DNA from: Numidum massiliense
GTDB taxonomy: Bacteria > Bacillota > Bacilli > Thermoactinomycetales > Novibacillaceae
Direction: 5' to 3'
NCBI RefSeq assembly: GCF_001375555.1
Contig: NZ_CTDZ01000009.1
Span: forward strand, 2,101,758 to 2,165,757
DNA length: 64,000 nt
This document shows, in pieces, positions 6,145-43,868 of this stretch. Both the position numbers and the translations under genes were made by a program. The notes beneath the pieces are model-generated. The model searched no databases, had not been told where the DNA came from, and was given only the letters and a program-made list of their open reading frames with translations. Position 1 is the stretch's first letter, and each line of letters opens with the position of its first letter.

Positions 6145-6969
6145 ATGAACTTTTTGACAATTTTTGCTCAAGAATTGCGGATTACGTTACGGCAGCGCGC
6201 ATCGTATACGTTTTTAATTTTGTTCACGCTCACCGTTACACTCATCCTGTTACTGCAAAAAAACGTCGCGGCAATGGCAGACTACACGAATTTAACCGCG
6301 AGTACGATGAACGTGCTGTTATATTTGTTGCCGCTCATCGCGATGATTATGGGTTCTTTTTCGATTGCGCAAGAAAAAGAGGATGGACAGCTAACACTGT
6401 TAACGACTTACCCCCTCGCGACGTCAGTCTATGTCTACGGAAAATATTGCGGCCAATATGCGGCACAACTCATCGTAATCACGTTCGGCTTTGGCGCCGC
6501 GGGCGTCGTCTCTTCCCTATTCGGTTCGCCGCCGACGGTTAGGTCGTACGTGCTTCTCTACTGTTTCGCTTTAGCGCTCTGCGGTCTGTTCCTCGCCATC
6601 GCCACCCTAATCGGCGCCCGGTCAAACACGCGTTGGCAGTCGCTCATGCGCGCCATCGCGACTTGGTTTGTCCTAATTATCGTCTGGCCGGCACTAGTCA
6701 TCGGCGTGTTAGGCTTACTTCCTTATGCGTACATACAGCCGGCACTGCAATTAGCGACACTTCTCAACCCGGCGGAAATGTTGCGGATTGCCCTTACCGC
6801 TTTACTCGGAGGCGGCACTGTTTTCGGGCAACCGTACGACACGTTGATGTACAAGCTGTCGGGAGCGACCGGCATGTTGTTTACCGTGGCCTACGCCTTC
6901 GTTTTCGCTGGCACGATTTTAGCACTCGCGGTACGCACGTTAGAGAGGAGGCGTCGCTATGGCTCATGA
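6145..6969 (+). CDS. nosY: NosY, ABC-2 type permease
   Basis: 274 residues from ATG 6145, selected by the AAGGAG ribosome binding site 10 bases upstream; the open frame extends back to 6031 without such support. About six transmembrane segments follow the start MNFLTIFAQELRITLRQRA. The EKEDGQLTLLTTYPLATSVY stretch is the coupling region typical of NosY/ABC2_membrane_2 proteins. Together with NosF it makes the transporter that partners NosD in CuZ maturation of nitrous oxide reductase. Its 3' end overlaps nosF by 11 bp, which indicates translational coupling. Confidence 0.85.
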   Translation: MNFLTIFAQELRITLRQRASYTFLILFTLTVTLILLLQKNVAAMADYTNLTASTMNVLLYLLPLIAMIMGSFSIAQEKEDGQLTLLTTYPLATSVYVYGKYCGQYAAQLIVITFGFGAAGVVSSLFGSPPTVRSYVLLYCFALALCGLFLAIATLIGARSNTRWQSLMRAIATWFVLIIVWPALVIGVLGLLPYAYIQPALQLATLLNPAEMLRIALTALLGGGTVFGQPYDTLMYKLSGATGMLFTVAYAFVFAGTILALAVRTLERRRRYGS

Positions 6970-7699
6970 CACCGTGTTATCCGTGCAGGATGTCGCTAAA
7001 CAATACGGGCAGAAACGCGCGGTGCACCCGCTTTCCATCGACGTCGCCCGCGGGCGAGTCGTTGCACTGTGCGGGGGAAACGGCGCCGGCAAGAGTACAC
7101 TATTAAAAATGATCGCCGGCATCGTCCCGCCGTCGCAAGGGACGATTTGCGTTAACGATCAGACGTACAGGAGTGCCCGCCAAGCGTATACGGCGGCGAT
7201 CGGTTATATGCCCGACGATTTTCTCTTTCAACAACCGCTCACCGTGCACGAATGGTTAACGTTTTATGCCAAATTGCGCTACCGCGACAAAAAAAGCCGT
7301 ACCGCTGCGCTAACGGACGCCTTGCACACGGGAGGCTTACACGATAAACGACAGGAAAAAATAACGAACTTGTCCAAAGGGATGCGACAACGGCTCCTGT
7401 TTGCACAAGCGATCGTCGGAAATCCCGCTTTGTTACTGCTCGACGAACCGACGAACGGACTCGACCCGTACTGGACGTCCGCCTTTATCGACATCGTCAC
7501 CTCTCTCAAACGGGAACAGCGGACGATCCTCTTTTCAACGCACCAGCTCGACGTTGCCGCAGAAACGGCCGATATCATTTTTGTGATGCACGAAGGTAAG
7601 GTCGTCGAGCGCATAGAAACAGGGGCAGTAGCGACTGAACAGCTCACTTTACAACTATTGCAGCTCAACCGCGAACTCGCATCGCCCACGTCAAAGTAA
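6959..7699 (+). CDS. nosF: NosF, ABC transporter ATPase
   Basis: 246 residues. Walker A GGNGAGKST (39-47), signature LSKGM (138-142) and Walker B LLLLDEP (158-164) are all present. The signature has Lys in place of the first Gly, as is common in NosF/CcmA-type ATPases. It powers the NosY permease. The start ATG 6959 has GAGAGGAGG upstream, inside the nosY end. It is the last gene of the operon, and no clear terminator follows it directly. Confidence 0.88.
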   Translation: MAHDTVLSVQDVAKQYGQKRAVHPLSIDVARGRVVALCGGNGAGKSTLLKMIAGIVPPSQGTICVNDQTYRSARQAYTAAIGYMPDDFLFQQPLTVHEWLTFYAKLRYRDKKSRTAALTDALHTGGLHDKRQEKITNLSKGMRQRLLFAQAIVGNPALLLLDEPTNGLDPYWTSAFIDIVTSLKREQRTILFSTHQLDVAAETADIIFVMHEGKVVERIETGAVATEQLTLQLLQLNRELASPTSK

Positions 7700-7822
7700 C
7701 GTATAACGGCGTAACGTCGACGGAGCGAGTGTCACCCATTTTTTCCGACCTTTAGACAGCAACTATGTGTGTTGTCTGAATGAATGCTACGAATCAATGA
7801 TCCTCATCGCATAGTATGCTTG

Positions 7823-7851
7823 TTGAAAATCCACCGTACTGATGTTAAACT
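7823..7851 (+). promoter_or_regulatory. Sigma-A-type promoter for a convergent RNA
   Basis: TTGAAA (7823-7828), a 17-bp spacer and TAAACT (7846-7851) fit a vegetative promoter. No coding frame follows, so the transcript would be the non-coding RNA described next. Confidence 0.5.
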
Positions 7852-7857
7852 AAGTAT

Positions 7858-8014
7858 ATAGTAAGAAAATGCAGCATATAATATGAAGAGCCTCTGCCGC
7901 TGCAACGGCAAAGGCTCCAGGACGCAAGCAGTGGATGCCCACGGCGCGATATGATAGAATTACAAGCGAAAAACCCACTCGAACCTACCCTTTACGCGGT
8001 GGGTTTTCGCTTGT
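7858..8014 (+). ncRNA. Candidate antisense RNA (antitoxin) with terminator hairpin
   Basis: Downstream of the promoter at 7823-7851 come two strong hairpins. The first, 7888-7917, has 12-bp arms GAGCCTCTGCCG/CGGCAAAGGCTC with one mismatch. The second, 7962-8014, has arms of 16-17 bp (CAAGCGAAAAACCCAC against GTGGGTTTTCGCTTG) with one bulge. The second hairpin lies over the 3' end of the small peptide gene read from the other strand (7992-8123), so the transcripts would overlap tail to tail. That is the geometry of Bacillales type I antitoxins such as RatA and SR4. There is no open frame with a ribosome binding site in it. Confidence 0.45.
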
Positions 8015-8123
8015 TACGGCGTCTTCGTTTCCAAAGTCGACATAGCTTCCGTCCGCCAAGATAAATACTTAGCAACGTAGCGACGATCTTCAAAACGAGC
8101 AACAACGTACCAAGCATGACCAT
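7992..8123 (-). CDS. Small basic membrane peptide, candidate type I toxin
   Basis: 43 residues, missed by a 60-residue cut-off. ATG 8123 is preceded at a good distance by AAAGGGGGTGG, one of the strongest ribosome binding sites in the window. The peptide has one hydrophobic segment (MVMLGTLLLVLKIVATLLSI, residues 1-20) followed by a highly basic tail with RKLCRLWKRRRRNKRK (25-40). A short transmembrane helix plus a Lys/Arg tail is typical of type I toxins, but I do not recognise the exact family. A weak promoter (TATGAT at 8192-8197 on this strand) could serve it. Its 3' end lies within the hairpin of the convergent RNA. Confidence 0.5.
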   Translation of the reverse strand: MVMLGTLLLVLKIVATLLSIYLGGRKLCRLWKRRRRNKRKPTA

Positions 8124-8320
8124 CGTGCCACCCCCTTTCACAAAGGAAGTGCGCGCCATGGTCAATTCCACCGACTTTTGTCCGTAAGTATATCATAGCA
8201 TGACTAATAGCACTTATCTACATATTCTTTCGAACAAACATTCGCGTTTTTGATTGAATCCCAAAACGTGATCATTCCTTACGATGACCCCTACCGTTAA
8301 GCAGTTTCAGGCGGTTTCTC

Positions 8321-9847
8321 TTAAGCCGGAAAATGAACCTCGCATTCTGCTACTGCTTGGCAACGCACATACCCGCGGAACTCCTGTTCTAGCCGTTCCC
8401 CTAGCTCGAAAATTGCATCTTCGTTTCCGACGCTACTTACTACTTGTACGGCAATCGGTAAACCGTCGCTGCTCGTTCCGACTGGAACCGTCAGCGCTGG
8501 CAAACCCCAAACATTGGCATAAGCAGCATAAGGCATATAAGATAAATACGTTTTGCGAATCGAGAAAATCTGTTTGTACACTTGTCCGTGCGCCGGTGCC
8601 GGCGTATGGTAAACGGGTAGAATGAGCAAGCGGTTTTGGAAATAATGCGCCAGCTGCTCATCCCCCGCTTGAATCGTCGCTTCGATGTCCGTCAACCGCG
8701 CCGCATTTGGCTTGAAGAGGCGTGCACCGATGATCGCCCACGTGAAGTAGTCATGTAGTTCGGATCGTTTAAATACCTTCTCGCGTAAAAACTCGCGAAT
8801 CGGGCGTACCGGTCGGTCACAAAACGCAGTCGCGGCGACTTGCTCGGCACCGTCAATCGACATGATCAACTGCCACAACAGTGCTGCCTTTTCATACAAC
8901 GGCGGTTGCTCGTCGCGAACGGAAAAATCGGCAGCGAGCCGATTGCTTACTTGTGCGAGCAACGTGCGCGTCACTTCATCGAGCGGATAACGGATGCTGT
9001 TCCGCGGGATAACGACTTCAAACGAGTCCCAGGCTTTCAAGTCAAAGTCTTTTAAGTCGAATGCTTTTAAGTCAAGTGCGTTCGAATTTCGCACCTCCCC
9101 CGTCGGGGGTGCCTCGGCGATGATCTCGTTAATAAGCCGCGCGTCGCGGACTGATTTCGCCATCGCACCGATGCCGAGCATGCGCGCTTGCAGCGCAATA
9201 TCGACGAACGGAAATGAACCTCGCTGCGACACTTGCGCATTGCCGCTTTTGAACCCGACAACACCGTTAAAGTGACTCGGAAAGCGAATCGAACCGCCAA
9301 TGTCGGAGCCGACGCCGACCGCTGCTCCGCCAGCGGCGATAAGCGCCCCTTCCCCGCCGCTCGATCCCCCCGCCGTTTTCGTCACGTCCCATGGGTTGTT
9401 CGTCCGCCCGTACAGTTTGTTATCACTTTCTTGGCAAAAGCAGAGCACAGGTGTGTTCGTCTTGCCGAGAATAATCGCCCCTTCCGCTTTTAACTTCGCT
9501 ACGACGTCTGAATCCACTTCAGCCACATGATCCTTGCGGGCAACGATGCCCCCCGTCGTGTGCATACCGGCGACGTCAAACGATTCTTTCACACTGATCG
9601 GCACGCCAAACAAGCGCCCGTTCCCTTCTCCGTTCCGTCGTTGCTCGTTCTTCTCGCGCTGCAGCTGTTCATCCGCACGTATCGCTTCTTGCCGTGCGGT
9701 TGCGAAACGGTCTTCTACTAAACAGTTAAGATGGGGATTAATCGCTTTCAATTGTGCGATGTATGTATCGGTTGCCGCCACGGAAGAAATCTTCCCGGTA
9801 CGAATCTGCTCTGCTAAAGCAGTTGCATCACTATCGAGAATTGACAT
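8321..9847 (-). CDS. Amidase signature family enzyme
   Basis: 508 residues from the ATG at 9847 (AAAGGAG upstream); a longer frame to 9877 lacks a ribosome binding site. The Ser-Ser-Lys triad of the amidase signature family is visible: Lys87 (GVPISVKESFD), the GGSSGG segment (160-165, cis-Ser) and nucleophile Ser186 (GSDIGGSIRFP). The family hydrolyses amide bonds in diverse small molecules. The single-gene context, without gatC or gatB, argues against GatA. Residues 224-245 hold short repeats of the type LKAFDLKDFDLKAW, which look like a local tandem expansion. The substrate is unknown. Confidence 0.85.
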   Translation of the reverse strand: MSILDSDATALAEQIRTGKISSVAATDTYIAQLKAINPHLNCLVEDRFATARQEAIRADEQLQREKNEQRRNGEGNGRLFGVPISVKESFDVAGMHTTGGIVARKDHVAEVDSDVVAKLKAEGAIILGKTNTPVLCFCQESDNKLYGRTNNPWDVTKTAGGSSGGEGALIAAGGAAVGVGSDIGGSIRFPSHFNGVVGFKSGNAQVSQRGSFPFVDIALQARMLGIGAMAKSVRDARLINEIIAEAPPTGEVRNSNALDLKAFDLKDFDLKAWDSFEVVIPRNSIRYPLDEVTRTLLAQVSNRLAADFSVRDEQPPLYEKAALLWQLIMSIDGAEQVAATAFCDRPVRPIREFLREKVFKRSELHDYFTWAIIGARLFKPNAARLTDIEATIQAGDEQLAHYFQNRLLILPVYHTPAPAHGQVYKQIFSIRKTYLSYMPYAAYANVWGLPALTVPVGTSSDGLPIAVQVVSSVGNEDAIFELGERLEQEFRGYVRCQAVAECEVHFPA

Positions 9848-9976
9848 GTATGTGCTCCTTTCCCCGTACCTTTTCATGGTATGACTCTATTTCATTGATA
9901 GCTGTCAAGGCAGAAATCACGGATGTCCGCATCAGGGTAACTCGTAATTGATGCCTATTTGTTTCTCGAATCACAG

Positions 9977-43579: not shown

Positions 43580-43868
43580 AAGAAAAAAGAAAAACCTCTC
43601 ATCCCTATTCAACACATAGAGACGAGAGGTTATTGCCTTCTCCCGCGGTACCACTCTTATTGCTTCCGTAGAAGCCTACTTTTCGTCACACGGACTTGAA
43701 GCGTTAACGGGCTTTTCCCGGCACACCCTACTAAGCGCACGTCGTTCAGGTGTACATCTACAAGGTCCGCTTCATCTACCGCCGGTGCATCGGGCTCTCA
43801 CCGTTCCCCGACTCGCTGCACACCGCCCGCGATAAACTACTGTCCTCATCATCGATCGCATCTGTCGT
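43580..43868 (-). promoter_or_regulatory. T-box riboswitch of argS
   Basis: The reverse strand carries the T-box sequence AGAGTGGTACCGCGG (43657-43643). The terminator stem AACCTCTC/GAGAGGTT with a T-rich tail lies at 43631-43581. Upstream is a stem I region with GCGAGTCGGGG ... CGGTGAGAGCCCG. A CGA triplet (Arg) directly follows a GAA at 43747-43742 and is the best specifier candidate. Uncharged tRNA-Arg should stabilise the antiterminator and let argS be read. Confidence 0.88.

Follow-up and report, generated by a model that had tools for sequence, protein, structure and literature searches.

An apparently undescribed family of probable type I toxin-antitoxin cassettes in Numidum massiliense and other Bacilli

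A small open reading frame that faces a promoter on the other strand is flanked by the end of an ABC-transporter ATP-binding gene (6959-7699) on one side and by an amidase-like gene (8321-9877) on the other. An earlier note on the window (the whole stretch of 64,000 nucleotides of Numidum massiliense DNA analysed here) had read this arrangement as a candidate type I toxin-antitoxin pair. The question raised by the locus is whether that reading holds, or whether the frame encodes another kind of small protein or none at all. The cassette spans positions 7820-8220 of the window and contains the following elements:

7992-8123 (-): open reading frame of the 43-residue peptide MVMLGTLLLVLKIVATLLSIYLGGRKLCRLWKRRRRNKRKPTA, the putative toxin, from the list of reading frames and the comparison with homologues
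8192-8220 (-): promoter of the peptide mRNA, TAGATA (8220-8215), a 17-nt spacer and TG-n-TATGAT (8197-8192), from the promoter scan and the paralogue
7823-7851 (+): promoter of the antisense RNA, TTGAAA-17-(TG-n)TAAACT, from the promoter scan; the paralogue has TTGAAA-17-TGCTAAAAT
7963-8013 (both strands): two-way intrinsic terminator (A tract, CCCAC stem, T tract), whose hairpin holds the stop codon of the peptide frame, with the 3' ends of both RNAs
7858-8014 (+): predicted antisense RNA of about 155 nt, the putative antitoxin, deduced from promoter and terminator

The peptide consists of a hydrophobic helix followed by a very basic tail, as the earlier note had described, and has a net charge of +12. 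A very strong Shine-Dalgarno site, AAAGGGGGTGG (8138-8128), is located 5' of the ATG; its exceptional strength had been recognised before, and its base-pairing in the predicted mRNA had been overlooked. No family in Pfam, NCBIfam, PHROGs, PADLOC or Rfam covered the peptide or the RNAs, and Rfam gave no match at the locus, in agreement with the earlier statement that the peptide belongs to no recognised family. Elsewhere in the window a T-box leader (RF00230) was present at 43615-43861 (-) with 100 bits.

Only two sigma-70-like sites were found between 7600 and 8400, namely the peptide promoter and the opposing promoter, which had already been proposed for the other strand. The peptide transcript is predicted to start at about 8185 (-) and the antisense transcript at about 7858 (+). 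Judged from the predicted ends, the two RNAs would overlap at their 3' ends by about 50 bp, which correspond in essence to the terminator plus the last part of the ORF, as expected from the earlier claim that the opposing transcript reaches the 3' end of the peptide gene. The predicted fold of the plus-strand RNA, for which stable hairpins had been claimed, was better than those of all 200 shuffles (z -3.1). The fold of the peptide mRNA likewise beat all shuffles (z -4.7). In the plus direction the terminator has a short T run, which counts against the explanation preferred below.

A paralogue (L002, G000:C9:184350) was present in the same genome at a distance of 1.9 Mb, with a peptide identity of 53%. 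It keeps both promoters, the leader stem, the stop codon in the terminator hairpin and the antisense hairpin. In a blastn comparison of the two copies the matching block extended from promoter to promoter (74% DNA identity, E 6e-59), and because this block has been kept the locus is more than a product of chance. The covariance model R1, built from these two copies only, found the full RNA at both copies of the source genome and gave 0 matches in other genomes among 42 of the order. About 1 kb before the paralogue, an orphan hairpin, AAGCAAAAACCCACCACGTAG..CTACTGGTGGGTTTGCG (L002:573-628), resembles the family terminator and C-terminal codons (K-P-T-T-stop) and is perhaps a remnant. Weak extra matches in the source genome and its relative (L003, L024) were rejected as homologues.

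A distant blastn search with the whole cassette led to one plasmid of Paenibacillus sp. Cedars, on which a third complete cassette occupies the gap 0.6 kb ahead of parA and repA. From this plasmid the search was extended to further Paenibacillus plasmids with the cassette; the peptide is sometimes annotated only as 'hypothetical protein', and most plasmid copies were seen without gene annotation. Of 398 genomes sampled from the class Bacilli, 36 were matched at a cut-off of E<=1e-8 by a profile built from ten peptides; they fall into 9 genera and 7 families. Named hosts include Brevibacillus gelatini, B. fortis, B. porteri and B. formosus, as well as Paenibacillus amylolyticus, P. xylanexedens, P. 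pabuli, P. illinoisensis and others. One viral contig carried a copy, and some genomes carried several. The copies inspected share the same surroundings. Many copies on Paenibacillus and Brevibacillus chromosomes recur at comparable distances from the start of the sequence; two Brevibacillus loci were read, and in both the cassette has the same neighbouring genes. A search for the linked peptide and hairpin RNA in relatives, the check that the earlier note had suggested, yielded cassettes in Bacilli with a conserved peptide frame. The peptide was absent from the one other genome sampled of the source family, and a phylum-wide sample of non-Bacilli genomes gave no convincing homologue. The peptide of the window gave nothing useful when searched by tblastn against phages and plasmids, and neither did the initial scans of contigs from viruses and genomes or those of the 60 nearest relatives.

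Several plasmids deserve separate mention. Two plasmids of one Paenibacillus strain (L048, NZ_CP020865.1; L144, NZ_CP020864.1) carry different versions of the cassette. On a P. polymyxa plasmid (L049:1960-2110) the antisense half is kept with 80.6% identity and an intact leader or peptide was not found at this locus, a possible antitoxin-only remnant. On a P. larvae plasmid an EGFOA RNA (RF02955, L052:869-1000) is located 1 kb from the cassette.

The homologous peptides are 38-45 residues long and consist of a helix and a basic tail. Within groups of homologues the dN/dS of the peptide was 0.15-0.23, which indicates purifying selection. The order of elements is conserved. The extended -10 is soon followed by a GGACAAG-like mRNA start; then come CGGTGG, GACCACGGCGCAGC..TTCC..GAAAGGGGGTGACGCC(G)ATG, the peptide, AAACCCACCGC-stop-GGTTG..GCC..CGGTGGGTTT, GCGCGCCGTGG..CCACAGC..TTGTCC, the antisense 5' hairpin and the antisense promoter. 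Of the 49 family members, 48 have an extended -10 (TG-n and at least 4/6 of TATAAT) ahead of the peptide, where shuffles give 6.0, and an antisense extended -10 is present downstream in 41 of the 49 copies, compared with 10.9 in shuffles. The set is dominated by two groups of related orthologues, many of them close, so that all counts over 49 copies overstate independence. At the conserved start position, some copies (L055:2001, L068:1492, L090 and L094) have ATC or CTG and not ATG or GTG, which suggests non-canonical starts.

The pairing of the ribosome site and other conserved pairings involve three further elements:

8117-8164 (-): leader hairpin pairing the Shine-Dalgarno site and the start codon, from folds and the permutation test
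8168-8173 (-): CGGTGG in the leader, predicted to pair over a long distance (5'-3') with CCACCG at the ORF end, from the duplex test
7888-7917 (+): first hairpin of the antisense RNA, from folds; its arms covary over the 49 copies

In the predicted mRNA, the leader segment CACTTCC is base-paired to the Shine-Dalgarno site, and the start codon, too, lies in a pairing (TGACCAT with ATGGTCA). RNAalifold found little on mixed alignments because the hairpin arms drift, and a test in which the arms were swapped between copies was used in its place. Swapping destroyed the pairing. The start-sequestering stem between the leader arm and the start region reached -15.5 with its own partner, -12.3 across copies and -10.1 with shuffles (0/5000 permutations). 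The duplex of leader and ORF tail reached -15.1 kcal/mol with its own partner and -9.2 with shuffles, and own partners were preferred (1/5000 permutations). For the antisense 5' hairpin the values were -11.0 with its own arm and -5.6 across the 49 copies (0/5000 permutations). Translation of the toxin mRNA is thus predicted to be blocked by its own fold.

The antisense RNA contains one more element:

7920-7948 (+): copy of the toxin-mRNA leader in the antisense RNA, GGACGCAAGCAGTGGATGCCCACGGCGCG versus the leader GGACAAAAGTCGGTGGAATTGACCATGGCGCG, from the similarity test

The copy has the same sense as the toxin leader. Its similarity score was 11.2 compared with 6.5 for shuffles, and the leader of the same cassette was preferred over those of other copies (0/5000 permutations). 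Pairing of the copy with the toxin start reached -11.3 versus -9.8 for shuffles, with no preference for the own partner, and a test over a wider region gave no difference from shuffles. Between the copy and the leader itself, pairing did not exceed chance. In at least two sequences (L052, L053) the copy was misplaced, which weakens these pairing tests. Because copy-start pairing was barely above chance and showed no own-partner preference, a direct-repeat contact of the par type is not established. It is a tentative idea, which we hold to be rather doubtful, that the antitoxin RNA uses this coevolving copy of the silencing leader in trans, the copy serving either as a spare arm of the leader or as a decoy that attracts the same RNA-binding protein or RNase.

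The earlier suggestion of SOS control through a LexA-like box at 8231-8244 had to be abandoned. LexA-type sites occur in the window at chance level (6 compared with 5.4 expected), and the box lies outside the conserved block and is not kept in the paralogue. A different site was seen in Paenibacillus: (C/G)GAACATACGTGC overlaps the extended -10, just 5' of the toxin -10, in L063, L074, L077, L085 and other chromosomal copies. As this sequence is only one mismatch from the LexA-type site GAAC-N4-GTTC, SOS control is conceivable in those copies, unlike in the window, and may be worth a look there.

The original reading is strongly supported at the level of sequence comparison: the cassette is conserved, its pairings covary, copies occur on plasmids and on a phage contig, and the peptide is under purifying selection. 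Type I toxin-antitoxin systems are themselves a known kind, and across the 49 copies a small hydrophobic peptide stands opposite a predicted overlapping antisense RNA, as in such systems generally. We consider it highly likely that the cassette is a type I toxin-antitoxin module, for which we infer transcription, toxicity, antitoxin action and a role of RNase III. The peptide and both RNAs appear to represent an undescribed family; this is provisional, as it refers to the open-access literature, and T1TAdb was outside the search.

A similar chromosomal position that recurs in Paenibacillus and in Brevibacillus, in the two Brevibacillus loci read with the same neighbours, is also what one would see for a resident small protein under regulation. 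The peptide could then be a membrane protein that is not toxic and is controlled by the antisense RNA, acting for instance as the regulator of a membrane partner, and not part of an addiction or abortive module; its strong conservation within each group would agree with this. The occurrence on several different Paenibacillus plasmids and the viral contig, the scattered distribution even within the source family as sampled, the multiple copies in some genomes and the double silencing of the mRNA argue against such a protein, and we regard it as unlikely.

The cassette could also belong, in diverged form, to one of the known type I toxin families Fst/par, TxpA/BsrG or Hol_Tox. Its layout is that of par(pAD1) (fst RNA I / RNA II, Enterococcus faecalis), with convergent promoters, a shared two-way terminator, a leader stem hiding the Shine-Dalgarno site and start, and a terminator-loop GGUUG/GGUCG motif (YUNR-like) in 41 of the 49 copies (PMC7472228); one plasmid copy also adjoins parA/repA. 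The peptide, however, is unrelated to Fst: Fst peptides are described as carrying the motif PXXXG and a tail that is charged (PMC7472228), whereas the tail here is all basic and PXXXG is lacking. The antisense RNA is about 155 nt long compared with about 40 in par, it carries the leader copy, and the pairing tests gave no clear sign of a DRa/DRb-like trans contact at the toxin start.

The arrangement of TxpA/RatA and BsrG/SR4, which the earlier note had named as the model, fits the 3' overlap. In TxpA/RatA, BsrG/SR4 and BsrE/SR5 of B. subtilis, too, the toxin mRNA and its convergent antisense RNA overlap at their 3' ends, and some of these systems also have a structured toxin mRNA with a hidden ribosome site (PMC6562991), but the overall design here, with convergent promoters, a shared terminator and a self-sequestered start, is nearer to par(pAD1). 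Complementarity in the B. subtilis pairs extends over 100-140 bp (PMC6562991) as opposed to about 50 bp by predicted ends here, and the peptide was not homologous by the tests made. The CD2517.1-RCd8-type systems of Clostridioides difficile likewise have convergent overlapping genes and small toxins with a hydrophobic N-terminus and a basic C-terminus (PMC6563280); those toxins, however, have 50-53 residues, and the non-Bacilli genomes sampled held no clear homologue of the cassette.

The copies tested against the Fst/par, TxpA/BsrG and Hol_Tox families of Pfam and NCBIfam gave no match even at E up to 5-10. PF13955 (Fst) found none of the cassette copies, and PF16935 (Hol_Tox) found only other loci of the source genome, so that descent from one of these families seems very improbable. 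The PF16935 matches in question (L139, L140 and L141; G000:C9:2432959, 3030175 and 2923117), two of them over the cut-off, are probably small toxins of known type, separate from the cassette family. Small ORFs are common, but a chance ORF beside an ordinary terminator is practically refuted by the conserved cassette, with frame and both strands maintained, by covariation and by dN/dS.

For the type I toxin-antitoxin module the following course of events is proposed. The convergent promoters would give rise to an mRNA of about 220 nt for the single-helix, very basic membrane peptide and to the antisense RNA, which would match the 3' end of this mRNA (end of the ORF and terminator) with perfect complementarity. 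The mRNA would be born silent, with the leader pairing the Shine-Dalgarno site and start codon and GGTGG pairing CCACC at the ORF end. The antitoxin RNA would probably first contact the shared terminator loop and then pair along the 3' part, and the resulting duplex would be kept untranslated or be cut by RNase III. Once the antisense RNA is gone, through loss of the element or a block of transcription, the mRNA, as the more stable of the two, would open and be translated, and membrane damage by the peptide would follow. By analogy to par(pAD1) (PMC7472228) and to the systems of B. subtilis (PMC6562991), the two RNAs are suggested to kiss at the terminator loop, to form a duplex and to differ in stability, and the peptide is suggested to be toxic at the membrane.

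With this finding, Paenibacillus, Brevibacillus and relatives would gain a toxin-antitoxin family that has so far gone unannotated; on type I systems of these bacteria the open-access literature searched contains almost nothing. Since most plasmid copies were seen unannotated, genome annotation misses the cassette. The family would join a par-like RNA control to an unrelated peptide; the RNA design would therefore either have been reused or have arisen twice. The repeated leader in the antitoxin offers a concrete mechanism open to testing, and a leader copy acting in trans, if true, would be a mode of control for which we know of no parallel in other type I systems.
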